Shown here: piece by piece, positions 5,413 to 37,283 of the stretch
How the letters are laid out: every line of letters begins with the position of its first letter
Numbering within the stretch: the stretch's first letter is position 1
Source: Acidovorax sp. DW039
GTDB lineage: Bacteria; Pseudomonadota; Gammaproteobacteria; Burkholderiales; Burkholderiaceae_C
Reading direction: 5' to 3'
NCBI RefSeq assembly: GCF_037101375.1
Contig: NZ_AP029019.1
Span: forward strand, 1,736,001-1,800,000
Length of the DNA: 64,000 bases
Notes under the pieces: model-generated
The model's database searches: none
The model's input: only the letters and a program-made list of their open reading frames with translations
Told to the model about the DNA's origin: nothing
Translations under genes and position numbers: made by a program

Positions 5413-5473
5413 GTGCGGGATATCTCCGGATGGAAGGGTGAAGAGCGAGCAGCACCCTTGTTGGTGTGTTTAT

Positions 5474-5488
5474 ATGGTTATCATACAA
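5474..5488. promoter_or_regulatory. Candidate GntR operator upstream of gntP
   Basis: The imperfect palindrome ATGGTTATCATACAA sits in an AT-rich patch between the regulator gene and gntP, about 62 bp before the gntP start. Read on the minus strand, TATGAT or TATAAA in the same patch could be a -10 element. A FadR-type site here would fit control by the adjacent regulator, but symmetry is partial. Confidence 0.35.
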
Positions 5489-5567
5489 ATTTAAAGAAAC
5501 GACCCTGATGCGGGTTAACCCTAGGCTTTGATCTGTTGAGCGGAGACGCTGAGACAGAGCCTGACGG

Positions 5568-6338: not shown

Positions 6339-6493
6339 GGTGGGCTGCAAAAGACGCTGAGAAAGTGCCGGATGGTATGGGCTGCCGTTTGAACGGCTTG
6401 CAGAAGGGCTGCCATGGTTGCCCTGTGGCAGTCCCGTTTGATTGACTTTACTGCAAGCTACGCGCGGCTAGGGTCTCAGGCATCTGCGCCGTG

Positions 6494-7558
6494 TTACTTG
6501 GGGTTGCCGCAGCTGTCGTCCATGCCCGCCAGACCGGCCAGCTTTTGCATGCGCGAGCGGTTTTCCAGGCAGGCTTGCAGTTGCTCTTGTGCCGCCTTCT
6601 GCTGTGCTGCGCGCAGGGCGTTGGCCCGCTCTGTCTGCAGCCTGGCAACCCGCTCACGAATCTGTGGCATCACGGCCAGGGCCGCCTTTTCGCCCTCGAC
6701 AATCGCATTCGCCCGCTGGCTGAAATCCGCGGCCCCAATGTCCAGCACCTGGGGGCGGATAATGACGTCGGCACGCGCCAGCTCCGCCTGGCCCAGCTTC
6801 TGGCCCATGATGGCGATGGACTGGTTCAGCGCGCCCAGCATGTTCTCCGGGGCTTGGCCGCGTGCCTTGTTAGAGATGTCCACCGCAATCACGATATCTG
6901 CCCCCAGCTGCCGGGCGGCATCCACCGGCACAGGGCTCACAATGCCGCCGTCCACAAAGTGGTACTTGCCAATGGTGACGGGCTGGAACACGCCCGGCAC
7001 GCTGCTGGATGCACGCACTGCCTGCCCGGTGTTGCCCCTGGCAAACACGGTGCGTTCTCCGTCTTCCAGTCGGGTGGCAACGGCCACGAAGGGTTTGGCC
7101 ATTTGCTCCAGTGGCCTGCGGCGCACCTGTTCGTTCACATAGTCTTCCAGCTTCTGGCCTTGCAGCAGGCCGCCAGACGATAGCTGCAGGTCACGAATCC
7201 TGGCTTCGTCCAGCGCCACGGCTTTTTCCTGCAGTTCAAAGGCATTCATCCCGCTGGCGTAGAGCGCGCCCACCACACTGCCCGCGCTGGTGCCTGCCAC
7301 CACAGTCGGAGCCAGGCCGTTGGCCTCCAGCATCTTGATCACACCAATGTGCGCAAACCCCTTGGCAGCCCCGCCGCCCAGCGCCACGCCGATGCGCACG
7401 GGGGCGGCGTTGAGGGTGGGAGTGGTGGACGCGGCAGGCGCAGCAGGTTCGGTGCGCGTGGGCGAGGTGCCACCGCAGGCCACCAGGGCCAGGGCAGCCA
7501 AGGCTGAGAGGGCGGCACCCCAGGTGCGTGCGGGGGCGAAAAAAGCGGTCAGGCGCAT
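6494..7558 (-). CDS. Patatin-like phospholipase, predicted lipoprotein (RssA-like)
   Basis: Serine acyl hydrolase with a Ser-Asp dyad, predicted to cleave lipid esters at the cell envelope. The 354-aa protein begins with a lipoprotein signal whose lipobox LVAC places the lipidated Cys at 28. The oxyanion motif GGGAAKG is at residues 61-67, the nucleophile Ser91 lies in GTSAG, and the catalytic Asp203 is in VDGG. After the patatin domain there is a charged coiled-coil-like tail (about 290-340) containing many Glu, Arg and Gln. No operon partner is obvious; the neighbours are a GntR gene on the same strand and an unknown gene on the other strand. Confidence 0.88.
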   Translation of the reverse strand: MRLTAFFAPARTWGAALSALAALALVACGGTSPTRTEPAAPAASTTPTLNAAPVRIGVALGGGAAKGFAHIGVIKMLEANGLAPTVVAGTSAGSVVGALYASGMNAFELQEKAVALDEARIRDLQLSSGGLLQGQKLEDYVNEQVRRRPLEQMAKPFVAVATRLEDGERTVFARGNTGQAVRASSSVPGVFQPVTIGKYHFVDGGIVSPVPVDAARQLGADIVIAVDISNKARGQAPENMLGALNQSIAIMGQKLGQAELARADVIIRPQVLDIGAADFSQRANAIVEGEKAALAVMPQIRERVARLQTERANALRAAQQKAAQEQLQACLENRSRMQKLAGLAGMDDSCGNPK

Positions 7559-7860
7559 GCGGGTTCCATCCTGCGGAGCAATGGGGCGGGCAGTATAGCG
7601 GCCCGTTACCCGCAGGGAGTATGCGCTGTGGCTATGCTCCTGAAATGAGAGCTGCCTGCGCTTTGTGCATAAGCGCTAAGGCGCAGTTTGTACAAGCTGC
7701 ATGTGAAGGCGGCTCGTGGTCTGGGTCTCGCACACCGAGTGGAGTCCCATGTTCTGCCAGATCACCTCCCTTAGCATACGTGCAGGCCCTCAAGCGCCTG
7801 CCACCACGGGGTGCGCGGCAGCTCCACATTTGTTCATCAATCACCTTGGGTATCTGCAGC
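7559..7860. other. Intergenic region between divergent genes (302 bp)
   Basis: Separates the patatin gene (minus) from the unknown gene starting at 7861 (plus). It holds one copy of the dispersed AGCTGC repeat at 7648-7690. I see no convincing -35/-10 pair, terminator or small gene in the remainder. Confidence 0.5.
7648..7690 (+). repeat. Dispersed AGCTGC...AAGCGCTA repeat, copy 1
   Basis: Core AGAGCTGCCTGCGCTT, spacer, ATAAGCGCTAAGGC. The inner parts GCGCTT and AAGCGC pair, giving a small hairpin. Same family as the copies near 10674, 22458, 29134, 40342, 43094, 45404, 58636 and 60317. Confidence 0.75.
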
Positions 7861-9006
7861 ATGAGCTACGACCTTCGTATCTGGGAAATACCCGCTGACC
7901 AACCCCAGCCAATGCTGTTTGAAGAAGCGGCGCGCTCTGTATTTGCCCTTGAAGGGCAGGAGGCCGATGCTCATCCAAAATTCAAGGCGCTGGCGGAGCA
8001 GATGGCCGCCTACAAAGGCTGTGGGGAAGCCCCTTGGCTGGGTGATCCAGTGGCAGAGGCGCAGCGCTGTACCCGACGCGTGTGGGTGTTTTCCCTTCCA
8101 GCCGACAACCGCATGCGGTTGCTCCACACGGTGGTGCGGTTGGCCAATGCGCTGGGCTTGTCGGTGCTGGATGATCAGCTGGGCCTGGCCCTGCTGGCAC
8201 CCAAAACCGTGTTGCCGCCACAGCGTGCCAGTGTGTGGCGTGACATCGTGATGGGTGTGCAGGAGGCTGGGTCAGCAACTTCCGTTGAAGGACCCAGCCT
8301 GGATTGGGCTCGGGGCACGATGCGTGCAGAACTCACTGCGCTGCTGGCTCCGTTGGGTTTCATATCGCCCCGGCAGCCGCTGGATTTGCCCTACTACCAC
8401 GCGCAGACGCAGGCCAATTACTTTCGCTCTACCCCGGCTGGGGGGCAGGTGCTGACGCTCGCCAGCTCAACCCTGAACAACGAGCCCAGCATCATCATCG
8501 ACGTCAATGTGTTCAGCGAGGAAATCGCTGATGTGCTGCGGGCCGTTTTTCCGGAGCAGGACGAGATGTATTTTCGGCGGCAGCTGAATTTCTACGTGGG
8601 CATATTCCGTGGCATCTTTGCCTATGTGCCTATCAAGTCGCATGCTGATCTGTACGGCATGCTGGAGGAGATGCGAGAGCCGGTGCTCGGTATTCTCGAG
8701 ACCACCCGTACCTCGCTTGGTATGGAATCCATCATGAGCGGACAAACTGCTTTTGCGCTCCCCTGGTCTCCGAACTCCCCTGTGCCCACCACGTTCGCGA
8801 TGCATGCGCAGCAGAACTATGGATACGCTGCCCTGATCAGCGCCTGGCTTTATGGCGGCGATGACTTTGCTGCGCTGGCCGAGGCAAAGCGCGATTCAGA
8901 AGAACGTAATGTTTTCGAACCCATGAAGGCCGAAATGGTGGAGCGGGTGGACCGTCTGGTAGCGTACTTGCGAGCCAATGTTCAGCGCAAGGGGGCAAAG
9001 GCCTGA
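7861..9006 (+). CDS. Hypothetical protein, 381 aa, family not recognised
   Basis: I do not recognise the family. The ATG at 7861 is chosen because the product then begins with a compact, plausible sequence (MSYDLRIWEIP); the frame stays open upstream to 7528 but runs through the intergenic repeat. There is no signal peptide or membrane segment, so the protein is probably cytoplasmic. Residues about 85-130 look like a mixed alpha/beta region (VRLANALGLSVLDDQLGLAL), and the last 60 residues are helical and charged. MSYDLRIW-type beginnings are seen in uncharacterised proteins near secretion or toxin loci, but nothing of that kind is adjacent. It converges with the ABC permease gene 31 bp away. 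Confidence 0.7.
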   Translation: MSYDLRIWEIPADQPQPMLFEEAARSVFALEGQEADAHPKFKALAEQMAAYKGCGEAPWLGDPVAEAQRCTRRVWVFSLPADNRMRLLHTVVRLANALGLSVLDDQLGLALLAPKTVLPPQRASVWRDIVMGVQEAGSATSVEGPSLDWARGTMRAELTALLAPLGFISPRQPLDLPYYHAQTQANYFRSTPAGGQVLTLASSTLNNEPSIIIDVNVFSEEIADVLRAVFPEQDEMYFRRQLNFYVGIFRGIFAYVPIKSHADLYGMLEEMREPVLGILETTRTSLGMESIMSGQTAFALPWSPNSPVPTTFAMHAQQNYGYAALISAWLYGGDDFAALAEAKRDSEERNVFEPMKAEMVERVDRLVAYLRANVQRKGAKA

Positions 9007-19414: not shown

Positions 19415-20662
19415 TCAGCTCAGCAGGTCACTCAGTGCGCGCGCAATCACCTTGGTGGCGCGGCGCAGGTCTTCCAGCTCGATGCGTTCATCCGCCCGTT
19501 TGGCGTGTGATTCGAGCACGGTGCGCGGTCCCGCGCCGTAGATCACGCCGGGGATGCCACGCTCTACATACAGGCGCACGTCGGTGTACAGCGGTGTGCC
19601 CACGGCAGGCACAGGCTCGCCGATCACGGCCTGGGCGTGTTTCTGGATGGCATCGACCAGCGGTGCGTTGCCTGTCAGTGGGGTCATGGCGTTGGCCAGC
19701 AGCAGGCGCTTGATTTCAACGCTGATGCCTGTGCGCTCGCCTGCGGCCTGCTCAATGATGCGGCGGATGGTCGCTTCCACCTCGGCAGGGTTTTCCTCGG
19801 GGATCATGCGGCGGTCCAGCTTGAACATCACCTTGCCGGGCACCACGTTGGTGTTGGTGCCGCCCTCAATGCGGCCCACGTTCAGGTAGGGGTGCTTGAT
19901 GCCCGCGACGTTAGACGTGACCTTCTTGTACTCGTCGTTCTGCGCGTACAGCGCATTCAGGATGTGCACCGCACCCTGCAGTGCGTCCACGCCCGTATGC
20001 GGCACGGCGGCGTGGGCCATCTTGCCGTGCACGGTCACTTCCATCTGCAGGCAGCCGTTGTGGGCGGTGACGACTTCGTAGCTGAAGCCTGCGGCAATCA
20101 TCAGGTCGGGCTTTGTGAGTCCGTTTTTCAGCAACCAACCGGGGCCCAGTTCGCCGCCAAATTCTTCGTCGTAGGTGAAGTGCAGCTCCACCGCGCCCTT
20201 CGCGGGCTTGGCCACGGCTTCGAGCGCGCGCACGGCAAAGGTGAACGATGCAAAGTCGCTTTTGCTCACTGCCGTGGCGCGGCCGTACATCTTGCCATCG
20301 GCAATCTCGCCGCCGTAGGGGTCGTGCGTCCAGCCTTCGCCGGGTGGCACCACGTCGCCGTGGGCGTTCAGGGCGATGGTCTTGCCTCCGCTGCCATCCG
20401 GGCTGCCATAGGGCCTGCGCACGATGAGGTTGGTGATGGATTCCATGCCATAGGCCCGCACATCAGCGGCGGGCACGGCGTGCTTTTCAGCCTCGTAGCC
20501 AAAGTCTTTGAGCAGCTCGGCCGTGCGTTCGGCGTGGGGTGCGTTGTTGCCGGGTGGCGTGTCGGTGGGCACACGCACCAGGGCCTGCAGAAAGCGCACT
20601 TCGTCGTCAAAGTGCTGGTCGATCCAGGCGTCCAGCGCGGCGTAGTTGTGGGGGGTGGTCAT
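19415..20662 (-). CDS. M20-family amidohydrolase/deacylase (ArgE/DapE-like)
   Basis: Zinc-dependent amidohydrolase, 415 aa. The metal site is visible as NAHGDVVPPG near residue 98, with a catalytic Glu pair in YDEEFGGE near residue 162 and a dimerisation domain in between. It is the last gene of the purine-degradation operon and overlaps the UraD-AllC gene by 4 bp (20659-20662), so it probably works downstream of allantoate. AllC function is already encoded by the upstream fusion, so ureidoglycolate or another ureido/acyl-amino acid is a plausible substrate, but this is inference from position only. General ArgE/DapE deacylase function cannot be excluded. Confidence 0.8.
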   Translation of the reverse strand: MTTPHNYAALDAWIDQHFDDEVRFLQALVRVPTDTPPGNNAPHAERTAELLKDFGYEAEKHAVPAADVRAYGMESITNLIVRRPYGSPDGSGGKTIALNAHGDVVPPGEGWTHDPYGGEIADGKMYGRATAVSKSDFASFTFAVRALEAVAKPAKGAVELHFTYDEEFGGELGPGWLLKNGLTKPDLMIAAGFSYEVVTAHNGCLQMEVTVHGKMAHAAVPHTGVDALQGAVHILNALYAQNDEYKKVTSNVAGIKHPYLNVGRIEGGTNTNVVPGKVMFKLDRRMIPEENPAEVEATIRRIIEQAAGERTGISVEIKRLLLANAMTPLTGNAPLVDAIQKHAQAVIGEPVPAVGTPLYTDVRLYVERGIPGVIYGAGPRTVLESHAKRADERIELEDLRRATKVIARALSDLLS

Positions 20663-22437
20663 GGTTGTGTTTCCTCGGCAAGCTGGTGCAGCACATGGGT
20701 GAAGGCATCAATGGCCAACTGCATGTCGTGGTTGGTGGTGGATTCGAGCGGGTTGTGGCTGATGCCCGAGTTTTGCCCGCGTACGAACAGCATGGCCTGG
20801 GGCATGATTTCGTGCAGCTTCATCGCATCGTGCCCCGCGCCGCTGGGCATGCGGAACACGGGCAGGCCCAGGGCATCCACCGCGCGCTCCCAGTGGTGCT
20901 GCAGGGCGGGCGCGCTGGGCGCGGCGGCGGCGCGCATGGATTCCTCAAGGGTGTAGCGCAGGCCACGGCGTTGGGCGATGCGGGCCAGTGTGTCGAGTAC
21001 GTCGCGCACCAGCGCATCGCGCTGGGCATCGGTGGGTGCGCGCAGGTCCAGGGAGAAGCTGCAGCGCCCCGGCACCACATTGATGGAGCCACCGGGCACG
21101 TTGAGCAGACCGATGGTGCCCACTGAGTCGCCATCCTGCGCGGCACGCTGCTCCACATACAGCGCCAGCTCGGCCACGGCGACGGCCGCATCGCGGCGGC
21201 GGTCCATGGGGGTGGTGCCAGCGTGGCTGGCTGTGCCGATCATCTCGGCCACAAAGCGCACACCGCCGTTGATGGAGGTGACCACGCCCAAGGGCAGATC
21301 CAGCTCGTTGAGCACCGGGCCCTGCTCGATATGCACTTCGATGAAGCCCAGATATTGCGCCGGGTCGCGCTGCAGCTTGGCAATGTCGCCAATGCACAGC
21401 CCCGCGTGCTGCATGGCCTCGCGCATGGTCACGCCATCGGCATCTTTTTGATCGAGCCAGGCGGGGTTGAAGTGCCCGATGAGCGCACCCGAGCCCAGGA
21501 ACGTAGCCTTGTAGCGCTGGCCCTCTTCTTCGGCAAACGCCACCACTTCGATGCCAAACGGCAGGCGCTTGCCAGCGCGGTGCAGCTCGCGCACGCAGGC
21601 CATGGGCACAAAGATGCCCAGGCGCCCGTCGTACTTGCCGCCGTTGCGCACGGTGTCGTAGTGCGATCCGGTCATGAGGTAGCGCGCACCGTCTGTAGCC
21701 GGGTGGTAGCGGCCCACCACGTTGCCCACGGCGTCGATCTCCACGCTGTCAAACCCGCAGTCGCGCATCCAGTGGCTGATGCGCTGTGCGCAGGCGCGGT
21801 GCGCGTCGGTGAGGTAGGTGACGGTGAGCTGGCCCTTCTCGGCAAAGCCGGGGTCTGAGTGCTGGGCCAGTTGCTCCTGCCAGTCCCATACATCGTTGCC
21901 CAGCACGGGCTCGGTGGCGAACTTGTCGGCCAGCCGAATCTCGGCAATGCGGTGGATGTTGCGCAGCGCCTCGGCCAATTCAAACTCGGGGTGGTTATCG
22001 AGCCGCCGGGCAAAGGTGTCGATGATTTCGCGCTTGCTGAGGCCCGTGCCACGCGGCCCGCGCACAGCCAGGATGAACGGGAAGCCAAAGCGCTCGTTGT
22101 ACGCCGCGTTGAGCTGCTGGATACGCTCAAACTCCTCGGGCGTGCATTGTGTGAGGCCCGCCTTGCTTTGCTCGTTGGCAGATTCGGCCGTGAGGCTTTG
22201 GGCCACCATGGCCTTGCCTGCCAGCTCAGGGTGGGCGCGGATCAGGCCCAGTTGCGCATCGGTGCCCGCGGTGCGCACCACCTGCGCCATAGCGTGCTGC
22301 AGGTGCGCCAGGCTGCGAAAGGGCCGCTGCGCCAGGGCCTGCTCGGCAATCCAGGGCGAGTGTTCGTACAGCCCGTCCAGCAGCGCCAGCGCTTCGGCGG
22401 GGCTGGCGGCGTTGAGTTGTTCCAAGGTCAATGGCAT
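20659..22437 (-). CDS. Fused OHCU decarboxylase (UraD) - allantoate amidohydrolase (AllC)
   Basis: Two purine-catabolic enzymes in one 592-aa chain. Residues 1-173 are 2-oxo-4-hydroxy-4-carboxy-5-ureidoimidazoline decarboxylase (catalytic His69 in HPELAGK), which makes S-allantoin. Residues from about 180 are an M20/HyuC-type allantoate amidohydrolase, with metal ligands in GSHYDTV (H259), the following KYDG (D270) and the FAEEEG stretch (302-307). These catalyse steps before and after the allantoinase encoded just upstream (puuE). The fusion seems intact, since both active sites are present. It overlaps the downstream M20 gene by 4 bp and follows puuE after 87 bp containing a dispersed repeat. 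Confidence 0.9.
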   Translation of the reverse strand: MPLTLEQLNAASPAEALALLDGLYEHSPWIAEQALAQRPFRSLAHLQHAMAQVVRTAGTDAQLGLIRAHPELAGKAMVAQSLTAESANEQSKAGLTQCTPEEFERIQQLNAAYNERFGFPFILAVRGPRGTGLSKREIIDTFARRLDNHPEFELAEALRNIHRIAEIRLADKFATEPVLGNDVWDWQEQLAQHSDPGFAEKGQLTVTYLTDAHRACAQRISHWMRDCGFDSVEIDAVGNVVGRYHPATDGARYLMTGSHYDTVRNGGKYDGRLGIFVPMACVRELHRAGKRLPFGIEVVAFAEEEGQRYKATFLGSGALIGHFNPAWLDQKDADGVTMREAMQHAGLCIGDIAKLQRDPAQYLGFIEVHIEQGPVLNELDLPLGVVTSINGGVRFVAEMIGTASHAGTTPMDRRRDAAVAVAELALYVEQRAAQDGDSVGTIGLLNVPGGSINVVPGRCSFSLDLRAPTDAQRDALVRDVLDTLARIAQRRGLRYTLEESMRAAAAPSAPALQHHWERAVDALGLPVFRMPSGAGHDAMKLHEIMPQAMLFVRGQNSGISHNPLESTTNHDMQLAIDAFTHVLHQLAEETQP

Positions 22438-27819: not shown

Positions 27820-29136
27820 ATGACTTTGCCTGATCCCCACCAGAACCCCACCGCCTTCCTGCGCCACCTGTACGACGTGGCGGTGCAAAGCGCCCAGCCC
27901 CTGCAGGGCCTACAGGCCCATTTGCCTGCTGTGCCCAAAGGTCGCACCTTGGTGCTGGGCGCGGGCAAAGCCGGGGGCTCCATGGCGCAGGCGCTAGAGG
28001 CGCTGTGGCCTGCCGACGCACCTATCAGCGGCCTGGTCGTCACCCGCTACGACCATAACCCGCCCAGACCGGCGGGCTTGAAGCAGCGCATTGAAGTGGT
28101 CGAGGCCGCCCACCCCGTGCCCGATGCCGCAGGCCTGCAGGCTGCAGAGCGCATGCTGGCCCTCACCCAAGGCCTCACGCCCGATGACCTGGTCATCTGC
28201 CTCATCTCTGGCGGCGGCTCGGCCTTGCTCACGCTACCTGCCGATGGCCTCACGCTGGCCGAAAAACAGCGCGTCAACAAAGAACTGCTGGCCAGCGGTG
28301 CTGCGATTGGCGAGATGAACTGCGTGCGCAAGCACCTCTCGCGCATCAAGGGCGGGCGGCTGGCTGCGGCCTGCGCCCCGGCGCGTGTGGTCACCCTCAC
28401 CATCAGCGATGTGCCGGGCGACGACCCCTCCATCATCGCTAGCGGCCCCACGGTGCCCGATGCCAGCACCTGTGCCGATGCGCTGGCGATTCTGGACCGC
28501 TACCGCATCACCGTACCGCCTGCCGTTCGCGCGGCGCTGGAGGCAGGGCTGCTCGAAACCCCCAAGCCCGGCGACGCCGTGTTTACAGGCCATACGGTGC
28601 ACCTCATCGCCACCCCCCAGCAGTCGCTCGAAGCGGCAGCGCAAGCGGCCCGCGCCGCAGGCTGGGCCGCGCACATCCTGTCGGACGAAATCGAAGGCGA
28701 ATCGCGCGAAGTGGGCAAGGTGCACGCGGCCCTGGCCCGCGCTGTGGCCCAGCGTGGTGCGCCGTTTGAACGACCCTGCGTGTTGCTCTCAGGTGGCGAA
28801 ACCACCGTCACCGTACGCCCCCGCCCCGAGGGCGCAGCCAAAGGCCGAGGCGGCCGGGCGGGTGAGTTCTGTATGGGCCTGGCCCAGGCCCTGCAAGGCC
28901 AAAGCGGCGTGTGGGCATTGGCCGCTGATACGGATGGGATCGATGGCGTGGAGGACAACGCGGGCGCCATCGTCACGCCGGACACCCTGGCCCGTGGCCG
29001 TGTCTTGGGCCTGCGAATCGATGACCACCTCGACCGCAATGATGCCTATGGCTACTTCAGCGCTTTAGGCGATCTGGTGGTGACTGGGCCCACCCATACC
29101 AATGTGAATGATTTCAGGGTGCTATTGATTTTGTAG
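27820..29136 (+). CDS. ttuD: Glycerate 2-kinase (MOFRL/TtuD family)
   Basis: Phosphorylates D-glycerate, giving 2-phosphoglycerate and linking tartrate breakdown to glycolysis. The 438-aa product starts at ATG 27820 and shows the family's LVLGAGKAGGSMAQALE near residue 45, ISGGGSALLTLP near 130, and a C-terminal MOFRL domain with ALAADTDGIDGVEDNAGA. It ends in NVNDFRVLLIL, and the final codons and the TAG stop overlap the start of a dispersed repeat. It may also be called hydroxypyruvate reductase in databases, an old misname for this family. It lies 241 bp after the Bug receptor, the gap being filled by the palindromic element. Confidence 0.9.
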   Translation: MTLPDPHQNPTAFLRHLYDVAVQSAQPLQGLQAHLPAVPKGRTLVLGAGKAGGSMAQALEALWPADAPISGLVVTRYDHNPPRPAGLKQRIEVVEAAHPVPDAAGLQAAERMLALTQGLTPDDLVICLISGGGSALLTLPADGLTLAEKQRVNKELLASGAAIGEMNCVRKHLSRIKGGRLAAACAPARVVTLTISDVPGDDPSIIASGPTVPDASTCADALAILDRYRITVPPAVRAALEAGLLETPKPGDAVFTGHTVHLIATPQQSLEAAAQAARAAGWAAHILSDEIEGESREVGKVHAALARAVAQRGAPFERPCVLLSGGETTVTVRPRPEGAAKGRGGRAGEFCMGLAQALQGQSGVWALAADTDGIDGVEDNAGAIVTPDTLARGRVLGLRIDDHLDRNDAYGYFSALGDLVVTGPTHTNVNDFRVLLIL

Positions 29137-29177
29137 CTGCCTGCGCTTTTTTTTGCAAAAGCGCTACAGGTGTTTTT
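29134..29177 (+). repeat. Dispersed AGCTGC...AAGCGCTA repeat, copy 4 (supplies a stop codon)
   Basis: TAGCTGCCTGCGCTTTTTTT then GCAAAAGCGCTACAGG. Its first three bases are the TAG stop of the glycerate kinase gene. The hairpin (GCGCTTTT/AAAAGCGC) with a T-rich loop could also act as a weak transcript end. Confidence 0.75.
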
Positions 29178-29368
29178 GACGCATTTAGCGACCCGCGTGT
29201 GCCACGCGAGCGAGCCATTGCGGCGTTGTGGGCCACTTGCGCTTTCAGGCGTACACGCTTACGGGCTGAATGCGGAGGGCGTATCCGGTTGCTGAAGAGG
29301 GAAGGCCCATGGTGGCTGCTCCCCCACATTGGCTGCTCCCGTTTCGCAGGCGCGGCCGGGGGGGGATA
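29178..29368. other. Intergenic region, no gene seen
   Basis: Contains a palindrome CGCGTG-TGC-CACGCG at 29194-29208. It lies between the end of the tartrate module and a small minus-strand gene. No promoter or coding signal is convincing. Confidence 0.4.
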
Positions 29369-29602
29369 TCACTCCCCAAGTACCTTCTCTACTGCTGCTT
29401 TGGCCTCGTCCAGGCTGCCGAAGTATTTTGTCGGCTGGGGCATGGCCTTTGGCAAATGTGCCGGGGGCGGCCACACTCGCTCTCCCTCCCAACAGGCTGT
29501 CCATCCCCCGATGTCTTTGCCTTTCAGTGTGCACAAGGGTTGCCCATTCATGACGGCGACCCAACTGGTGGGGGGCATTTGCTTCCAAGTGACAAGCGAC
29601 AT
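29369..29602 (-). CDS. Small hypothetical protein, 77 aa
   Basis: A short frame with protein-like composition and no recognised family. The product is rich in Trp and Pro (SLVTWKQMPPTSWVAVMNG at the start) and ends in an amphipathic helix, PTKYFGSLDEAKAAVEKVLG. The ATG at 29602 is preceded by AGGGG at a suitable distance. A longer version from 29752 is possible, but the added part is rich in Ser, His and Cys and looks non-coding. No signal peptide or membrane segment. It may be an uncharacterised single-domain protein of the small KTSC/WGR-sized class, but I cannot assign it. Confidence 0.45.
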   Translation of the reverse strand: MSLVTWKQMPPTSWVAVMNGQPLCTLKGKDIGGWTACWEGERVWPPPAHLPKAMPQPTKYFGSLDEAKAAVEKVLGE

Positions 29603-29845
29603 TCGGGCCCCTTTTTGTATTCGATCTGAACCAGTGTAGAGATCGAGCGGGCGATGCGTGCACTCTGGAGAACCCTGAGACGGTAGGAGATGCGCAACAG
29701 ACAGCAACCCGCTGCCTGCTTGAAACGAAGCGAGCTTGCAATCCCCTGCCAACTCCGTCTGTACATCGCTAGTTCCGCAAAATCATTATTTTTGGGTAAT
29801 GAAATTTGTATCGTTTTTATGAAATGTCAAAAAATCAATGTAACT

Positions 29846-29876
29846 TTGAAATTCAAATTGCTTCATTGAATTTCAA
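29846..29876. promoter_or_regulatory. Tandem palindromes TTGAAATTCAA and TTGAATTTCAA
   Basis: Two near-identical 11-bp palindromes (29846-29856 and 29866-29876), centres 20 bp apart, i.e. about two helical turns on the same DNA face, about 100-130 bp before the acyltransferase start. They also pair with each other as an 11-bp inverted repeat. Good candidate for a dimer-of-dimers operator. Confidence 0.5.
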
Positions 29877-29953
29877 TTGAAACAACATATCTCAAAATCC
29901 ATCATTAGTTGTTTAGGCAACATTTCATTTGTTTGAGAGTGTTAGCATTGCGA

Positions 29954-29968
29954 ATGGTTATCAACCAT
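29954..29968. promoter_or_regulatory. Inverted repeat ATGGTT-ATC-AACCAT at the cassette promoter
   Basis: Perfect 6-bp arms, 3-base loop, ending nine bases before the first ATG. It lies between TTGCGA (29949-29954) and TATAAG (29971-29976), a possible -35/-10 pair with 16-bp spacing, so a bound protein would block the promoter. Confidence 0.45.
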
Positions 29969-29977
29969 ATATAAGCT

Positions 29978-30658
29978 ATGCAAGATTCAGAGCATACGAT
30001 TATTGAGCTTCCTTATCAGGGAGGGATGGAGTTGGTGGAGGGTATATCTCTCACTTGCAAGATTCGGCTCTCCCGATCTGGGAAAGGATTGTTGTCGAGA
30101 ATGTATGCAAGCAAGGGATATGCGCTGGATACATCGCTGACTCATCTGCAAAACAGAAGCAGTCTGGTGGTGCAGATCAATGGCCAAACCATGGGAACCC
30201 TTTCTGTGGGCGTTGATAACGGGGATTTTGCTGCGGGCGAACTCTACCCGGAATTCATCAATGGTTTGAGGGAAAAGGGCGCTGTGATTTGCGAGTTTGG
30301 GCAGTTGGCCTTTGATCCCAATGTTCGATCGAAACGTGTGATGGGCGCCATTTTTCATATAGCCGCGCTTGTCGCTCTGCGCCTGCGTGGTGCGACTGAT
30401 ATCGTGATCGAAGTTAATCCAAAGCATGCAAGCTTTTATCAGCGCATGCTCGGTTTTGTGCAGGTGGGGTCAGAACGCGTGTGCGAGCGTGTGGGTGCGC
30501 CAGCGATATTGCTGCACATAGAAGCCCCTACCGTTTTTGCGCAGATCAAGAAATTTGGTGGCCATCCGGAGTTGGCATCTCAAGAACGCAGTTTCTATCC
30601 CTATTTCTTTCATCCGAAAGATGAGGATGGGCTTGTCAGGCGGTTAAGGGGATATTGA
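29978..30658 (+). CDS. FeeM-like N-acyltransferase (N-acyl amino acid synthase type)
   Basis: Predicted acyl-ACP or acyl-CoA-dependent N-acyltransferase, 226 aa, with GNAT-like fold. Typical positions: LLSRMYASKGYALD (38-51), GTLSVGVD (73-80), EFGQLAFDPNVRSKRV (106-121), then a helix and EVNPKHASFYQRMLGF (145-160) with VGSERVCERVGAPAILL (163-179). This arrangement matches the family of long-chain N-acyl amino acid synthases and exosortase-associated acyltransferases, which resemble autoinducer synthases. ATG 29978 has no Shine-Dalgarno; ATG 30026 has one (AGGGAGGG) but at very short spacing. It is directly followed, with zero spacing, by a ThiF-like gene. The product and acyl donor are unknown. 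Confidence 0.7.
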   Translation: MQDSEHTIIELPYQGGMELVEGISLTCKIRLSRSGKGLLSRMYASKGYALDTSLTHLQNRSSLVVQINGQTMGTLSVGVDNGDFAAGELYPEFINGLREKGAVICEFGQLAFDPNVRSKRVMGAIFHIAALVALRLRGATDIVIEVNPKHASFYQRMLGFVQVGSERVCERVGAPAILLHIEAPTVFAQIKKFGGHPELASQERSFYPYFFHPKDEDGLVRRLRGY

Positions 30659-31525
30659 ATGTTTGATTATGAAGCGGCGTTTGATCGCAATATTGGCTGG
30701 GTCACAGAGTCTGAGCAGCGCCGCCTGCGCAGTTGCCGGGTCGCCATCGCTGGTCTGGGTGGTGTGGGGGGGAACCATCTTCTGACTTTGGCGCGGCTGG
30801 GGATAGGCGCTTTCAGCTTGGCCGACTTTGACGAGTTCAGCATTGCCAATTTCAACCGGCAGGCAGGCGCCAGCATGTCCACCGTGGGTGCCCCCAAGCT
30901 TTCAGTGATGGCTTCCATGGCGCGCGACATACAGCCGGATATGGACCTCCGTATGTTCCCCAAGGGGGTGACTCCTGAAAATCTGGATGAGTTTCTGGAA
31001 GGCGTGGACCTGTACGTCGACAGTCTCGATTTCTTTGCCTTTGATACGCGCCGAGCGGTGTTTGCTGCTTGTGAACGGAAGGGCATTCCCGCCATCACGG
31101 CTGCGCCGTTGGGAATGGGCGTCGCATTTCTGGCGTTCATGCCCGGCAAGATGAGCTTTGAGTCGTACTTCCAGCTCGAAGGGCAAAGCCACTTTGAGCA
31201 AGGGTTGAGATTTCTTTTGGGGTTGGCCCCCGCGCGGCTTCATGCCAGCTACCTGGTGGATCCTTCCCGTGTGCGACTCGATCTGCAGCAGGGCCCTTCA
31301 ACAGGCATGGCATGCATGTTGTGCGCTGGGCTCGCGGGCACCCAGGCCCTGAAGATATTGCTGGATCGCCCTGGCATTCCCGCTGCGCCCAGGGGCTGGC
31401 ATTTTGATGCCTACCGTGGGCGGCTCGCCCATACATGGCTTCCTGGGGGCAACCGCAATCCGGTGCAGAAGTTGAAAATTGCCATTGGGCGCAGGCAGCT
31501 TGCGGGCATGCTGCCTGCACAGTAG
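30659..31525 (+). CDS. ThiF/MoeB/HesA-family E1-like adenylyltransferase
   Basis: Predicted to adenylate a carboxyl group on a peptide, protein or small molecule using ATP. The 288-aa Rossmann protein has GLGGVGG (32-38), acidic ADFDEF (55-60), the arginine-finger motif NFNRQ (64-68), Lys80 (GAPK) and Asp121/Asp129, the full ATP-site set of E1 enzymes. A single CxxC pair (C219, C222) is present; the usual second zinc pair is missing. The only other cysteines are C26 and C138, and none lies where MoeB/ThiF carry the thioester Cys, so it may activate without thioester transfer, as TcdA or MccB do. It starts immediately after the acyltransferase stop (TGA-ATG), so the pair is co-translated. Confidence 0.82.
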   Translation: MFDYEAAFDRNIGWVTESEQRRLRSCRVAIAGLGGVGGNHLLTLARLGIGAFSLADFDEFSIANFNRQAGASMSTVGAPKLSVMASMARDIQPDMDLRMFPKGVTPENLDEFLEGVDLYVDSLDFFAFDTRRAVFAACERKGIPAITAAPLGMGVAFLAFMPGKMSFESYFQLEGQSHFEQGLRFLLGLAPARLHASYLVDPSRVRLDLQQGPSTGMACMLCAGLAGTQALKILLDRPGIPAAPRGWHFDAYRGRLAHTWLPGGNRNPVQKLKIAIGRRQLAGMLPAQ

Positions 31526-31619
31526 GAACGCTGTCGATTCTGGCCAAGCGTACCAATGACTTGCTGTGGTCGCTTTTTCAATGGGGCTACAGCGCTCATC
31601 GGTAAGTATTGTTTAGCGC

Positions 31620-33839
31620 TTACCTGCCGCGCCTTCTCATTGCTCCAAAGGTGCCCAAGGCCATCAATGCGCTTAGCATCATCAGCCCCCATTCACTCAG
31701 TGTCGGTATGCCTGCGACACCAGAGCCGCCTCCTACACCCACTCCCAGTGCGACGGGATCATTGATCACCCCGTTGGCCACCCAGTCGTTGTCACCCTTT
31801 TGGCCGTCTGTCAGGGTGTAGGTCACTGTTTTGGCATTGAAGTCGATGGTTGCAGGGTATTCGAACCATTTATTGTTGTCACCGACGCCCGTTTCTTTGC
31901 CGTATTTGTACAGCTTCGCACCCGCCGGAATGTCGCTGAAACGCAAGGTGACAGTCGCGCTGGAGCCCGGTGTTCCGGCGTCCAGCACTACCTTCGTGGC
32001 TCCGTTGGGAAAGGTCACTCCCGTGGGCGCAGGAGCGGGCAAAGAAACAAATCCTGAATCTGCCGTCCTGATTTGCCAGTTGTTGGTGCCTGTTGCTTGA
32101 ATGGTGCCTAGCGTGCCACCACCGCCAGGCAAACTGGCAAAAGGCGCTGAGCAACTTGCGGCGGTACCGCCGTTGGTGCCGCTGCAGCTCCATCTCCAAG
32201 ATGCGCTGCTTGTGGTGACCTGGCTTGCACTTCCTGTGGTGCAGAGGTTCGCTGAAGGTGTAAAGGCTGTAGCAGTGTTGGATGCTGCACCGCAGATGCC
32301 ATTGACAGGCGCGGCTGTTACTGCAGCGGTCGCTGCTGAGCAGACTTCTGCGCCGGTGAGCGTGCCCGCGTTTGCTACGGGTGTAACGCAGAAATACAGG
32401 TAATTGCCGACATCTGCTGGTGCGGGTGTGTAGGTCCGGGTACCCGCTAGCGTGGTGCCACCTGCAATGCCTGTGTTGGTGTTATTGCGCACCCAGCGGA
32501 ATGTCGATGCGCCTTCTGGATTGTTTTCTGTGTCGCTGAAGACGTATCCGCCCGTGAGGAGGCTACCTTCGCGGACAGTGCCTGAAATGGAGATGTTGGA
32601 TGCTACAGGCGCAGCATTGGGGGCGTAGGTAAAAGGCACCGAGTAAACGCTGGTTCGGCTTGCGCTGTCTTGCACCAGAAGGTCGTAGTCGCCGTTAATG
32701 AATTGATCCCATCCAAACTGGATGGAAGAGGCGATGCCCGTGGTTCCGGGATTACTAGGCGATGTGATGTTGAGATTTAAGGTGCATTGACCCGGGCAAT
32801 AGATGGACTCACCGCCCAGCGTCGGTTGCACGGTCTTGCCTTCTCTGAAGTACCTTGCGTCAGAGCTTGACAGCTTGAACATGCTGTACGCGCTCGAAGA
32901 GAGTTCTGCTCCGCTGGGCAAAGGCGAATTACGGGGAACCACCAATAGGTCAATATTGTTGGGTGCGATCCCCGTGGGGACCGTCACCGTCATATTGGGA
33001 TGGGTGACCGTGACTTGGATGTTGCCAGTGCCAGAACTGACGATGGGCGCAGAAAGGACAGCGGGCGTGGCCGCAGAGCAGACTTCTGCACCTGTGAGGT
33101 TGCCGACATCAGCGACTGGCGTTACGCAGAAATACAAGTATTTGCTGACATCCTCTTGCACTGGCGTATAGCTGCGTGCGGTTCCCACCGTAGTCCCACC
33201 CGCCACACCTGTGGTGACACTATGACGAACCCAGCGGAACGTTGAGAAGCTTTCCCGATTATTTTCTGCATCGCTGTATGTGTACTGACCCGTGAGAAGG
33301 CTGCCTTCACGCGCAACGCCATTGATAGCCACGTTGGATGCAACAGGTGCCTCGTTAGGCGCGTACGTGAACGGCACAGAGAAAATCGTGATCTGGGCCT
33401 CGCTATCCTGCACTAAGAGGTCGTAGTCACCCTGCGCGAATTTGTCCCAGCCGAAGTAAATAGACGAGGCTACGTACCCGGGTTGAGTGGGGTTTGTAAT
33501 GTTCAGGGTGAGGGTGCATTGAGTTTGGCAGGCTATGTAGTTACCCCCTAGTGTCGGCTGAACGTTGCTTGCGTATACGGCATTTGCGGAATCCAGCTTG
33601 TACATCCGGAAGGCGCTATCGTTGAGCTGGGCATTGCTCGGCAAGGGCGAGTTACGTGGGACGACCAAGAGATCGACAGAGTTTGTTGTGACTCCTGAAG
33701 GGACAATCACCGTCATGCCTGGGTAGCTGACGGACACCCGGATGTTGCCTGTGTCAGCGAGGGCGGCATTCACGCCAAAGGTGGTAATCACAGCGGCTGC
33801 GATAGGATGCAAGGGCAGATGACGCATAGATGGATACAT
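31620..33839 (-). CDS. IPTL-CTERM sorted surface protein with choice-of-anchor U domain
   Basis: Secreted envelope protein, 739 aa from ATG 33839. It has a signal peptide (cleavage near ALA, residue 28), then two tandem repeats of about 240 residues, each containing VDLLVVPRNSPLPS, FGWDxF...GDYDLLVQDS and FCVTPVAxxGxLTGAEVCSA. A short Cys-containing module and a choice-of-anchor U domain (KLYKYGKETGVGDNNKWFEY) follow. The tail is IPTLSEWGLMMLSALMALG followed by RRRGR, the IPTL-CTERM signal recognised by exosortase H in related bacteria; no exosortase is in this window. The start is set by the upstream TPR-GNAT stop, 17 bp away on the same strand. A longer frame to 33911 would overlap that gene. 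Confidence 0.88.
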   Translation of the reverse strand: MYPSMRHLPLHPIAAAVITTFGVNAALADTGNIRVSVSYPGMTVIVPSGVTTNSVDLLVVPRNSPLPSNAQLNDSAFRMYKLDSANAVYASNVQPTLGGNYIACQTQCTLTLNITNPTQPGYVASSIYFGWDKFAQGDYDLLVQDSEAQITIFSVPFTYAPNEAPVASNVAINGVAREGSLLTGQYTYSDAENNRESFSTFRWVRHSVTTGVAGGTTVGTARSYTPVQEDVSKYLYFCVTPVADVGNLTGAEVCSAATPAVLSAPIVSSGTGNIQVTVTHPNMTVTVPTGIAPNNIDLLVVPRNSPLPSGAELSSSAYSMFKLSSSDARYFREGKTVQPTLGGESIYCPGQCTLNLNITSPSNPGTTGIASSIQFGWDQFINGDYDLLVQDSASRTSVYSVPFTYAPNAAPVASNISISGTVREGSLLTGGYVFSDTENNPEGASTFRWVRNNTNTGIAGGTTLAGTRTYTPAPADVGNYLYFCVTPVANAGTLTGAEVCSAATAAVTAAPVNGICGAASNTATAFTPSANLCTTGSASQVTTSSASWRWSCSGTNGGTAASCSAPFASLPGGGGTLGTIQATGTNNWQIRTADSGFVSLPAPAPTGVTFPNGATKVVLDAGTPGSSATVTLRFSDIPAGAKLYKYGKETGVGDNNKWFEYPATIDFNAKTVTYTLTDGQKGDNDWVANGVINDPVALGVGVGGGSGVAGIPTLSEWGLMMLSALMALGTFGAMRRRGR

Positions 33840-33856
33840 GTTTATGCTTAATCGGT

Positions 33857-34918
33857 TCAAGTTGAATGGAAGCGTGTGCGGAGCGCTAACAGGCGGGGCA
33901 GGGTGTTCCACCTAGTCTGAAAAAGCGCCATGGAATGCACATGCAACCACCGCCCGTCGGGCAGCAGGATCTCGTCCTTCAGCAGCCCCTCCTGATCGAA
34001 ACCGAGTGCGATGAGCTGTTTCAGCGCGTTGGGGTTTGTTTGATAAACCAGCGCTTGCGTTTTATGGGTGCCCAGTCTTTCAAACGCGAAGTCCAGTACC
34101 CCCAGAAAGGCGGCGATTCCGGTGCCTGAACTGGCGTGGGCCCCCCTGACACCCACGGCAACCTCCGCTTTCCTGTTCAATAAATGAAAGGATGGAATAC
34201 CCGCCAAGCCTATGCGTTGATTGGTTGCGGCATGCCAAATCACCCACTTGATATTGCCCCTTTGCACTGGGGCCAAACGCGCCTCCTGTTCTATGCGCGA
34301 TGCCAGCCCATCCTGGTCTATGGTTGGCGTCTGGGGTGCATTGAAATGGTCCATGAAGGTGCGGTCTGCGCTGCACTCTGCAAAGAACGGCACGTCTTCA
34401 AGCGTCAAGGGGCGTAACTCGACAGGGCCATAACGGTGCGATCGCCACCAAAACGGTGCAGTGGCGAAGTGCCCTGCCTGTGCCCGCTCTCGTTGCGCGG
34501 CGCGTTCGCCCATCAACGGAAGCGACTCGGTAAAGGCCTGGTGCGCCTGCGCAAACTGCGAGGATTCAAGCAACGCCTCTCCCAAGCCCACAAACCCCTC
34601 AGGCTCCCTTGGCGAAAGTCGCGTCCCGGCCCTGAAGGCTTCCACCGCATCGGTGAAGCGTTGGGCTTTGCGCAGGGCGTGGCCCAGATTGATGTAGGGG
34701 ATGCCTGATCCCTCACTCAAGGGGGCTGCACGCTCCAGCGTACGGATGGCATCATCGATTCGTCCGGTTTGCAGCTGTACGGAGCCCAGGAGGTTGAGCA
34801 CGCGTGGGTCGGGTTGCGGTCCTTGGCCCATTGGCTGCAGCAGTGAAAGTGCTGCATCAAAATGGCCCTGCGATGCCAAGCCTCGAGCGATCTGTAGGGT
34901 GTGTTCAGATGTCGACAT
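33857..34918 (-). CDS. TPR repeat - GNAT acetyltransferase fusion
   Basis: Two-domain protein of 353 aa. Residues 1-150 are TPR-like helical repeats (for example NLLGSVQLQTGRIDDAIRTL and YINLGHALRKAQRFTDAVEA). Residues 160-345 are a RimJ/RimL-type GNAT domain that begins YGPVELRPLTLEDVPFF, has an acetyl-CoA-site region GAHASSGTGIAAFLGVLDFA, and ends with NPNALKQLIALGF. Such a fusion could recruit its substrate through the TPRs and acetylate it. It is the first gene of a two-gene operon with the IPTL-CTERM protein (17-bp gap), and the whole operon converges with the FeeM-ThiF cassette. Substrate unknown. Confidence 0.8.
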   Translation of the reverse strand: MSTSEHTLQIARGLASQGHFDAALSLLQPMGQGPQPDPRVLNLLGSVQLQTGRIDDAIRTLERAAPLSEGSGIPYINLGHALRKAQRFTDAVEAFRAGTRLSPREPEGFVGLGEALLESSQFAQAHQAFTESLPLMGERAAQRERAQAGHFATAPFWWRSHRYGPVELRPLTLEDVPFFAECSADRTFMDHFNAPQTPTIDQDGLASRIEQEARLAPVQRGNIKWVIWHAATNQRIGLAGIPSFHLLNRKAEVAVGVRGAHASSGTGIAAFLGVLDFAFERLGTHKTQALVYQTNPNALKQLIALGFDQEGLLKDEILLPDGRWLHVHSMALFQTRWNTLPRLLALRTRFHST

Positions 34919-35423
34919 TGGGAGTGTGGATCAGGCTTGCTGATGAGTTGAATTTGGTTGGGATTTCGGAAAGGGTTTCCAACGATCCGGATGCGGCCAC
35001 TCGCGCAGATGGACCCGGCTTGGATATATGGCCGCAGCGCGACTGGCAGTGCAGTCGCTTGGTTTAGCTGCGGGTCATCAGCCCTGATTTCCTCAAGCAT
35101 TCGTATTGACTGTTCAATCTGATCAAAAAGGGAAAACGTGAGAACGGCCAGAATGCTAGGGAGCAAAGAAATGCGTTGCAATCTTTAAATGCGCAACGCT
35201 TTGGATTGGGCTGCCGAGCCCCTTTTGGGCCTTAGCAGCGTCTATCCAGGGCTTTTTACTGACTCTTGGGGCACGGCAGAGTAATGCGTCCGTTCAAGCC
35301 AAAGTCAGGACTGTGGACCCTGCATGACGATCTCAGCGGCCACTTTCTTGGACATTTACGGGGACCATGGCCGCACGCCGCAAATCGAGAAATCCCGGTG
35401 GGCTTTACCCCCAAATCGAAGGC
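34919..35423. other. Intergenic region (about 500 bp), no gene supported
   Basis: Somewhat lower GC than its flanks, probably the promoter region of the TPR-GNAT operon. Contains an inverted repeat GCGTTGC-N13-GCAACGC (35173-35199). A short minus-strand frame starting at 35181 runs into the TPR gene in another frame and is not considered real. Confidence 0.45.
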
Positions 35424-35451
35424 AAAAAAAAGGCCGCACTCAGTGCGGCCT
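35424..35451 (-). terminator. Terminator after ggt
   Basis: Minus strand AGGCCGCAC-TGA-GTGCGGCCT followed by eight T: a textbook Rho-independent terminator 21 bp beyond the ggt stop. Confidence 0.93.
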
Positions 35452-35471
35452 GGAAATAGGTTTAGACGCCC

Positions 35472-37283
35472 TCAATACCCCAACGTCTGCCCATCCGGAT
35501 TGCGCGGATCGGAGTAGCCATACAGCTGCCCGTTGCGGATCTGGATGGTTTGCGTGCGGCCCATCGATGCCTTCACGGCGATGTTGTGGCCACGTTGCTT
35601 GAGCAGGGCCAGGGTGTCGGGCGAGAGGCCCTTTTCCACGCGCAGTTCGTCGGGCGTCCATTGGTGGTGGATGCGCGGTGCGGCGGCGGCTTCGGCGGGG
35701 TTGTTGCCAAAGTCGATGGTGTTCACCACGGTTTGCAGCACGGTGGTGATGATGCGGGCACCGCCAGGGCTGCCGGTCACCAGCGTGGGCTTGCCGTCCT
35801 TGAGTACCAGGGTGGGTGTCATGGAAGACAGGGGGCGCTTCTTGGCGGCCACGGCGTTGGCGTCGCCGCCGACCAGGCCGTAGGCGTTGGCCACGCCGGG
35901 CTTGGCCGAGAAGTCGTCCATCTCGTTGTTCAGCAAGATGCCGGTGCCCTTGGCGACGATGCCGCTGCCAAAGTTGGTGTTCAGCGTGTAGGTCACGGCC
36001 ACGGCGTTGCCCGCCTTGTCCACCACCGAGTAGTGGGTGGTCTGGTCGCTTTCATACGGCTGGGGTTGGCCAGGCTTGATTTCCTTGGCGGGGCGGGCGC
36101 GGTTGCCATCGATGGTCTTGGCCAGCGATTCGGCGTAGCGCTTGGAGGTCAGGCCCTTGAGTGGAATCTTCACAAAGTCGGGGTCACCCAGGTACTCGGA
36201 GCGGTCTGCGTAGGCCAGCTTGCTGCTCTCTGCCATGTAGTGCAGCGTTTGCGCGCTGTTCTGGCCCCACTGGGCCAGGGGCCACTGCTCCAGCATGTTC
36301 AGGATTTGCACCAGGTGCGTGCCACCAGAAGAGGGTGGGGGCATGGTCACCACTTCGTAACCGCGGTAGGTGCCGCGCACGGGTTCGCGCTCGGCCACCT
36401 TGTATTCGCGCAGGTCTTGCAGGGTGATGGCACCCGCGTGGGGGGCCATTTCGGCTGCAATCTTCTGGGCAATGGCACCTTCATAGAAGGCTTTGGCTCC
36501 TTGCTGGCCGATCAGGTGCATGGATTGGGCCAGGTCTTTTTGCACCAGCAGGTCGCCGCGCTTGAGGGGCTCACCGTTCTTCCAGAAGATTTCGGTGGTG
36601 GCGGGCCACTGGCCCATGTTCTTCTTTTCCTGCTGCAGGATCTTGGCCAGGGTTTCGCTGACGGGGAAGCCCTTCTCTGCCAGCGCAACGGAGGGTGCAA
36701 TCACCTTATCGAGTGGCATGGTGCCCCACTTCTTGAGTGCATGCTCCATGCCAGCCACCGTGCCCGGCACGCCCACGGCGTAGTGGGTGTAGAGCGACTT
36801 GCCGTTGATGACGTTGCCCTTGTCGTCCAGGTACATGTTGCGTGTGGCCTTGATCGGTGCCACTTCGCGGAAGTCCAGCGCCACGGTCTTGCCCGTCTTG
36901 GCGTCGTGCACCATCATGAAGCCGCCACCGCCGATGTTGCCCGCGTTGGGCAAAGCCACGGCCAGCGCAAAGCCGATGCCCACGGCGGCGTCTACAGCGT
37001 TGCCACCGGATTTGAGAATGTCCAGCCCGATGCGCGAGGCCAGTTCCTGCTCGGTGGCCACCATGCCATTGGTTGCCACCACGGGGTGGAACACGTCCAT
37101 GTCAAAGTCGTAAGCCGCGCTGGCGGCAGCAGCGGCCGCGCTTTGCTGCACCGCAGGTGCCGCAGTGGCTGTGGCAGCGGGGGATGCGGCTGCATTGGCC
37201 GCGGGCGGTGTCGCGCCGCAGGCGGCCAGGTTGAGCAAGGCCAGCGCAAGGCTGCTGGCCAGCAGGGTTTGCCGGATATTCAT
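35472..37283 (-). CDS. ggt: Gamma-glutamyltransferase, predicted lipoprotein
   Basis: Cleaves gamma-glutamyl bonds of glutathione and related peptides in the periplasm or at the membrane. The 603-aa precursor should self-cleave before Thr415 (TTHYSVVD), the N-terminal nucleophile of the small subunit; SSGGTH near 318 and the downstream GSPGG motif complete the site. Unlike the usual soluble enzyme, the N-terminus carries a lipobox (LNLAAC, Cys22) followed by about 35 residues of Ala/Pro/Thr-rich linker, predicting membrane anchoring. Start at 37283 with GGAGATGAACG upstream. Single gene, with its own terminator. Confidence 0.94.
   Translation of the reverse strand: MNIRQTLLASSLALALLNLAACGATPPAANAAASPAATATAAPAVQQSAAAAAASAAYDFDMDVFHPVVATNGMVATEQELASRIGLDILKSGGNAVDAAVGIGFALAVALPNAGNIGGGGFMMVHDAKTGKTVALDFREVAPIKATRNMYLDDKGNVINGKSLYTHYAVGVPGTVAGMEHALKKWGTMPLDKVIAPSVALAEKGFPVSETLAKILQQEKKNMGQWPATTEIFWKNGEPLKRGDLLVQKDLAQSMHLIGQQGAKAFYEGAIAQKIAAEMAPHAGAITLQDLREYKVAEREPVRGTYRGYEVVTMPPPSSGGTHLVQILNMLEQWPLAQWGQNSAQTLHYMAESSKLAYADRSEYLGDPDFVKIPLKGLTSKRYAESLAKTIDGNRARPAKEIKPGQPQPYESDQTTHYSVVDKAGNAVAVTYTLNTNFGSGIVAKGTGILLNNEMDDFSAKPGVANAYGLVGGDANAVAAKKRPLSSMTPTLVLKDGKPTLVTGSPGGARIITTVLQTVVNTIDFGNNPAEAAAAPRIHHQWTPDELRVEKGLSPDTLALLKQRGHNIAVKASMGRTQTIQIRNGQLYGYSDPRNPDGQTLGY

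Follow-up and report, generated by a model that had tools for sequence, protein, structure and literature searches.

Within a 64,000-nt stretch of Acidovorax sp. DW039 (contig NZ_AP029019.1, positions 1,736,001 to 1,800,000; hereafter the window, with positions counted from its first nucleotide), two abutting genes encode a FeeM-type N-acyl amino acid synthase and a ThiF/E1-like ATP-dependent adenylating enzyme, presumed to be a cyclase. We read this locus as a reduced FeeM-ThiF-oxidase operon that would provide a two-enzyme route to an N-acyl amino acid and its ring-closed, saturated N-acyl oxazolone, or to something made from it, and we give this reading a probability of about one half. The protein families, motif residues, predicted folds and adjacency of the two genes, the lack of a detectable oxidase and the phylogenetic position of the locus are observed; from these we infer the reactions, the substrate, the product and its fate.

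The pair encodes a FeeM-type synthase and a ThiF-like enzyme

The synthase matches the FeeM model PF21926 with 148.6 bits against a cut-off of 27. Among solved structures its sole convincing sequence relative is FeeM (2g0b, E 4.3e-9; next match, E 0.34), which is again the best fold match of the predicted model (pLDDT 83.9; E 1.9e-12, TMt 0.76), although identity over the structural alignment is only about 22-23%. Synthase Glu106 aligns to the region of the FeeM catalytic glutamate, and replacement of the matching glutamate in a related synthase is described as abolishing the surfactant and hemolytic phenotype (PMC4897644). We consider it very probable that the FeeM-type enzyme of the window produces an N-acyl amino acid.

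The ThiF-like enzyme scores 146.1 bits on PF00899 (cut-off 28.1) and 431.9 bits on the NCBIfam model PRK08223 (cut-off 266). Its frame is intact, and the glycine-rich motif together with D58, N64, N66, R67, Q68, K80, D121 and D124, which we take to be the adenylation residues of the E1 family, is kept and invariant in 25 aligned rows. In fold, the predicted model (pLDDT 93.2) agrees best with E. coli ThiF, and it also matches MoeB, MccB, PaaA and E1 enzymes. These fold matches would also suit an enzyme that activates the carboxyl terminus of a protein or peptide in E1 fashion (ubiquitin-like, thiamine or molybdopterin type) and has FeeM beside it by chance. We regard this as very improbable: the enzyme reaches none of the cut-offs of the ThiF, MoeB, TcdA and E1 models but exceeds that of PRK08223, it contains one CxxC only and its cysteines are not universal among relatives, and both FeeM adjacency and ThiF-oxidase fusions recur in those relatives. 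One of two options in a first-pass annotation of this DNA, that the enzymes modify the carboxyl terminus of a peptide or protein, found no support here. The family assignments of the same annotation (FeeM-like and ThiF/E1-like) and the exact TGA-ATG abutment that it described agree with the PF21926 and PF00899 matches and with the coordinates: the FeeM stop codon occupies 30656-30658 and the ThiF start codon follows at 30659 with no gap, both on the + strand.

No function name is attached to PRK08223, a stand-alone model, or to the related PRK14851 and PRK14852. The multi-domain model PRK14851 also matches the oxidase of a relative, whereas the window has separate genes and lacks the oxidase part. 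PRK14852 describes one protein, parts of which correspond to the synthase and ThiF of the window and to the oxidase of a relative; here, too, the window genes are separate.

No flavin-dependent oxidase is detectable in the locus or genome

A flavin-dependent oxidase was not found beside the pair in the window locus, and a full-sensitivity profile search of positions 31400-36000 revealed no remnant of one (best E 0.56). When a profile of ten relatives' oxidases was run against the window genome, only short stretches appeared (E 0.93 and 0.99), with none at E 1e-10.

This state differs from that of the published oxazolone pathways. TyzACB and TrzAS produce N-acyl oxazolones by means of an N-acyltransferase, an ATP-dependent ThiF-like cyclase and a flavin-dependent oxidase (PMC10404671, PMC12856293), and OxzAB follows the same three-activity route (de Rond et al., as cited in both papers). 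TyzA and TrzA N-acylate the amino acid, and ATP-dependent ring closure is carried out by TyzB and by the ThiF part of TrzS; in TrzS cyclisation comes first, and the non-oxidised cyclised intermediate builds up under O2 limitation or when the oxidase carries a mutation (PMC12856293). The window shares with these systems a FeeM-fold N-acyltransferase and a ThiF-like ATP-dependent cyclase in neighbouring genes; their oxidase was found neither in its locus nor in its genome, and we therefore read the window as a variant of the oxazolone pathway. As judged from sequence and predicted structures, the families, folds and tested motif residues of the pair fit the oxazolone pathway enzymes.

The first-pass annotation had proposed an acylated, carboxyl-activated small molecule as product, which is the product type of these pathways (PMC10404671, PMC12856293). 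Its remark that no characterised pathway combines just these two enzymes is out of date, as TyzACB, TrzAS and OxzAB all combine both activities; if the remark is read strictly, the window is a variant, as these three add an oxidase not found here. It had also named membership of either gene in a known and unrelated pathway as a refutation; a known pathway does exist, with the window as an oxidase-less variant of it, and membership in a known pathway is half true.

In PMC12856293, the nodes of a ThiF network are coloured by neighbouring oxidase, acyltransferase or both, and a bare pair is thus implicit there. In the portions of the literature examined we found no description of an oxidase-free FeeM-ThiF pair as a working pathway, and the physiological role of oxazolone lipids, which are recent discoveries, is termed unresolved (PMC12856293). 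Bacteria that make dehydro N-acyl tyrosines possess genes for a synthase, a ThiF and a nitroreductase (PMC12479983); in these clusters the synthase gene adjoins a ThiF-family gene as in the window, and a nitroreductase gene is added, unlike in the window. Massilia umbonata makes saturated products with neither ThiF nor nitroreductase and so does not represent the state of the window either.

Proposed reactions

In the route that we propose, FeeM would transfer a fatty acyl group from acyl-ACP (acyl carrier protein) or acyl-CoA (coenzyme A) to the amino group of an amino acid, which would be aromatic by analogy only. ThiF would then use ATP to adenylate the free carboxyl of the N-acyl amino acid, and ring closure would give a saturated N-acyl oxazolone (azlactone). 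Since no flavin-dependent oxidase was found, the pathway would stop at this point. Saturated oxazolones are reactive and readily epimerised. Water, an amine or a hydroxyl would be expected to open the azlactone ring, and the final product may be whatever does so; the free saturated oxazolone itself as end product is a tentative proposal, with the odds somewhat against it. The pair may yield a simpler and more reactive molecule than those described.

The pair recurs among relatives, with and without an oxidase

Loci around relatives of the ThiF-like enzyme were compared in two sets, set A of 51 genome_contigs loci and set B of 65 order-level loci, with at least one record shared (L036 = L185). 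Metagenome assemblies are the source of many set A loci, and contig ends truncate several of the fetched stretches; an absent gene is one not in the fetched stretch, and a directly upstream gene lies on the same strand within 300 bases. At E 1e-40, the order of the window contains a ThiF match in 66 of 399 genomes (the window's included) and 33 of 159 genera. Within a genus sample the match occurs in two of 36 genomes, that of the window and one with a distant copy (G028, 45%).

A FeeM-type gene stands directly upstream of ThiF in 35 of the 65 loci of set B (elsewhere in 18, none seen in 12) and in 21 of the 51 of set A, 16 of these being of another synthase subtype (elsewhere in 21, none seen in 9). 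The first-pass annotation would have taken a lack of conserved adjacency as a refutation; these counts do not refute it. In set B, 12 loci have the oxidase fused to ThiF, 27 have it next to ThiF, 11 have it at another place in the stretch and 15 show none; the respective counts in set A are 6, 8, 3 and 34. Bare FeeM-ThiF pairs with no oxidase in the stretch number 7/65 in set B and 14/51 in set A. All seven of set B carry the synthase subtype of the window; in set A one does (L038), and the other 13 carry a different subtype (c2), a representative of which, L026, matches TIGR03694. At the genome level an oxidase match at E 1e-10 is present in 28 of 56 ThiF genomes, 22 of them at E 1e-60 or better (L070, which has a broken frame, is left out of this and of the exosortase counts below).

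Several of these loci show arrangements of their own. L160 has three consecutive FeeM-type genes immediately 5' of ThiF (5051-7908). At L038:9082-11523 (Lacisediminimonas profundi), FeeM and ThiF are followed by a methyltransferase gene in the place of the oxidase. A synthase-ThiF pair outside Pseudomonadota lies at L062:9219-10858, in a metagenome-assembled genome of Halobacteriovoraceae; neither the oxidase nor the exosortase EpsH has a match in the genome sequence examined. In L049-L051 (Methylococcaceae), ThiF is followed by a gene for a resistance-nodulation-division (RND) transporter, a possible exporter; the L050 protein matches HAE3/MMPL models, and those of the others fall in the same cluster.

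Phylogenetic position points to stepwise reduction

In a 57-row ThiF tree, the window enzyme groups with those of G048 and three Undibacterium species (100/94), all four of which have FeeM-ThiF-oxidase operons. The window clade of a 114-row ThiF tree (117 rows less three short or duplicate ones) comprises nine other rows, with the oxidase adjacent or fused in 9/9, at an SH-aLRT of 89, which is under the level starred in that tree. In an 84-row FeeM tree, from which L185 and exact duplicates had been removed beforehand, the window synthase is sister to those of 11 congeners (100/99), followed by that of G048 with its full operon (100/91); no ThiF of this kind was found in the 11 congener genomes. 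As far as these sequences go, the locus reads as the outcome of stepwise reduction. Movement between lineages is also possible, because the Undibacterium FeeMs do not group with that of the window although their ThiFs do. One of the congener loci was annotated (L073), and its lone FeeM gene lies between genes for a pyridoxal phosphate-dependent decarboxylase and a glycerol-3-phosphate dehydrogenase.

The state of the oxidase changed at least 13 times on the 114-row tree, with seven changes forced by starred branches; 14 rows whose oxidase lies at another place in the locus were assigned to neither group of this comparison. One clade of 26 rows, which includes Thiobacillus, Methylococcaceae, Aliiglaciecola and Colwellia, shows no oxidase in any of the loci fetched. 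Of the genomes behind it, 19 gave no oxidase match; matches were weak in five (E 1e-11 to 1e-22), moderate in G102 (8e-41) and strong in G081, the genome of L043, where the match lies elsewhere in the genome (2e-149).

Observations that weigh against a two-enzyme route

Several points tell against the proposed route. Expression of TyzA with only the TyzB cyclase gave no detectable cyclised intermediate, and no cyclised saturated species were seen in vivo in TrzAS strains (PMC12856293); the saturated oxazolone may therefore not accumulate. Glu106 is no strict marker of the synthase, because its column in 25 aligned rows holds E 21 times, Q twice (both Undibacterium) and D twice. The two trees conflict on Undibacterium, as described above. 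Furthermore, the window genome contains three nitroreductase-family (PF00881) matches elsewhere, which could stand in for the oxidase, so that another protein of this family would carry out the desaturation and the oxazolone pathway would be complete. We consider such a substitution quite improbable: two of the three proteins fit the relatives' oxidase profile in short N-terminal stretches only (E 0.93 and 0.99), and the third does not match it at E 10.

The losses of the oxidase and of ThiF in the sister lineages also fit a decaying operon. The chief rival of our reading, which we judge unlikely, is accordingly that the locus is a remnant in which the oxidase is lost, ThiF is left over, and the function resides in FeeM alone with its N-acyl amino acid; the sister position of the 11 congeners with no such ThiF is what favours it. 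The unbroken ThiF frame, which starts exactly at the FeeM stop and retains all tested motif residues, argues against decay, as does the retention of an oxidase-less ThiF in many lineages.

The ThiF enzyme shares an association with exosortases

N-acyl amino acid synthases have been linked to PEP-CTERM systems (Craig et al. 2011, as cited in PMC4897644 and PMC11072679), and disruption of such a synthase in Methylomonas LW13 prevented the formation of polysaccharide bands (PMC11072679). We add that the ThiF enzyme, with an oxidase or not, shares the exosortase association; a literature search, mostly of titles and the openings of abstracts, found no report of this co-occurrence. An EpsH-type exosortase occurs in 48 of the 56 ThiF genomes and in 8 of 54 relatives without ThiF (Fisher p 3e-14, samples not taxon-matched). 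In a taxon-matched subset of one genome per family of the order, the counts are 3/4 and 4/20 (p 0.06). PrsT is present in 36/51 loci of set A and 20/65 of set B, and either PrsT or a PEP-CTERM-like end in 40/51 and 47/65. Divided by the presence versus absence of an adjacent oxidase, PrsT is found in 8/14 versus 28/37 loci of set A and in 8/39 versus 12/26 of set B.

FeeM-like synthases, comparable to the PEP-CTERM/exosortase-associated acyltransferases (TIGR03694), stand near this ThiF in many exosortase genomes; the window differs, as its synthase has no TIGR03694 match at E 0.1 and its genome no EpsH match (PF09721) at E 1. The PEP-CTERM pattern was absent from the 64-kb window and from 15 control FeeM loci (218 kb; 14 from the genus of the window and one from its order, mostly from genomes without EpsH). 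Only three of the 56 ThiF genomes lack both an EpsH and an oxidase match, namely those of the window, of L038 (G076) and of L062 (G100).

The window genome instead encodes XrtH (G000:C1:690826-691293), and 18 IPTL-CTERM matches are spread over both contigs, 16 of them above the cut-off. One of these is the neighbour of the pair, convergent with it and 94 bases beyond the ThiF stop. Around the lone FeeM genes of the 11 congeners (L073-L081, L087 and L088, with fetched neighbours L202-L220; 396 kb), six loci have an IPTL-type end at a distance of 5.5-8.5 kb from FeeM; in controls taken from six of these genomes (40 stretches, 800 kb), two such ends were found. The pattern used recovers 8 of the window genome's 18 IPTL loci and so undercounts test and control alike. 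This proximity is an after-the-fact lead: the test was post hoc, and the six cases are probably one ancestral site because they are alike in distance and orientation.

On this evidence the pair might serve surface-protein sorting, supplying a lipid or acyl donor for XrtH and the IPTL-CTERM proteins, as N-acyl amino acid synthases accompany PEP-CTERM systems elsewhere. The EpsH counts, the XrtH and the 16 IPTL-CTERM matches of the window genome with one adjoining the pair, and the congener loci all speak for such a role. Against it, XrtH lies about 1.08 Mb from the pair, an IPTL-type end was seen in none of the 65 order-level loci and, doubtfully, in one of the 51 others, the congener cases probably reduce to one ancestral site, and the EpsH samples were not matched by taxon. 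On balance we find it rather unlikely. A broader proposal, to which we give still less credence, is that FeeM-ThiF is a general module giving a reactive N-acyl-aminoacyl donor, the saturated azlactone, to exosortase pathways (XrtA/PEP-CTERM in many lineages, XrtH/IPTL-CTERM in this genus). The donor or a derived lipid would be placed onto sorted surface proteins or exopolysaccharide, and the oxidase operons would form a branch in which desaturation turns the intermediate into a stabler product.

Upstream region and surroundings of the pair

The features of the locus are compiled in Table 1. The region upstream of FeeM is the AT-richest stretch of the window, which has 63% GC overall, and the starts of the twelve lowest-GC 200-bp windows listed all fall within 29721-29831. 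The first-pass annotation had noted this contrast between AT-rich upstream DNA and GC-rich surroundings, which we confirm, and began its feature at 29753 so as to include the upstream region. Of the operator-bearing promoter that it saw there, the operator part gained moderate support: the inverted repeat was matched by 19 of 2000 dinucleotide shuffles, so that an operator upstream of FeeM is plausible from the sequence. In a looser test that allowed palindromes, 36 of 300 shuffles were as good, and the exact repeat arms are absent from the 300 bases 5' of FeeM in all six relatives checked. The promoter part fared worse, with one sigma-70-like match against a shuffle mean of 1.8 and hence no excess. 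No terminator was found over 29600-31700, and a search of Rfam over 29100-32000 gave two matches, both under the gathering score, and no structured RNA.

Table 1. Features of the FeeM-ThiF locus in the window
Feature	Position	Strand	Evidence
AT-rich upstream region, presumed promoter	29753..29977		30% GC, 225 bases
Exact 11-nt inverted repeat with 9-nt spacer, possible operator	29846..29856 / 29866..29876		Shuffle-tested
FeeM-type N-acyl amino acid synthase, 226 aa	29978..30658	+	PF21926, E 1.7e-43
ThiF/E1-like ATP-dependent adenylating enzyme, presumed cyclase, 288 aa	30659..31525	+	PF00899, E 1.2e-42
IPTL-CTERM protein with two AIR9-type Ig domains and a choice-of-anchor U domain (context only)	31620..33911	-	PF18203, TIGR04174 and NF041766 over cut-off

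The FeeM and ThiF genes have 50% and 59% GC, respectively. They lie, with the IPTL-CTERM gene, in a run of lower GC content (29001-36000, 51-60% per kb), which could be acquired DNA. The IPTL-CTERM gene is adjoined by a gene (33857-34918, - strand) whose product joins tetratricopeptide (TPR) repeats to a GNAT acetyltransferase domain. Farther away, at 20659-22437 (- strand), an OHCU decarboxylase domain is fused with an M20 peptidase domain.

Implications

An oxidase-free version of the oxazolone operon occurs in dozens of the loci examined. If our reading is true, ring closure would be useful by itself and would be a possible source of reactive acyl donors. The co-occurrence of ThiF with exosortases offers a handle for testing the roles of N-acyl amino acids in exosortase systems.

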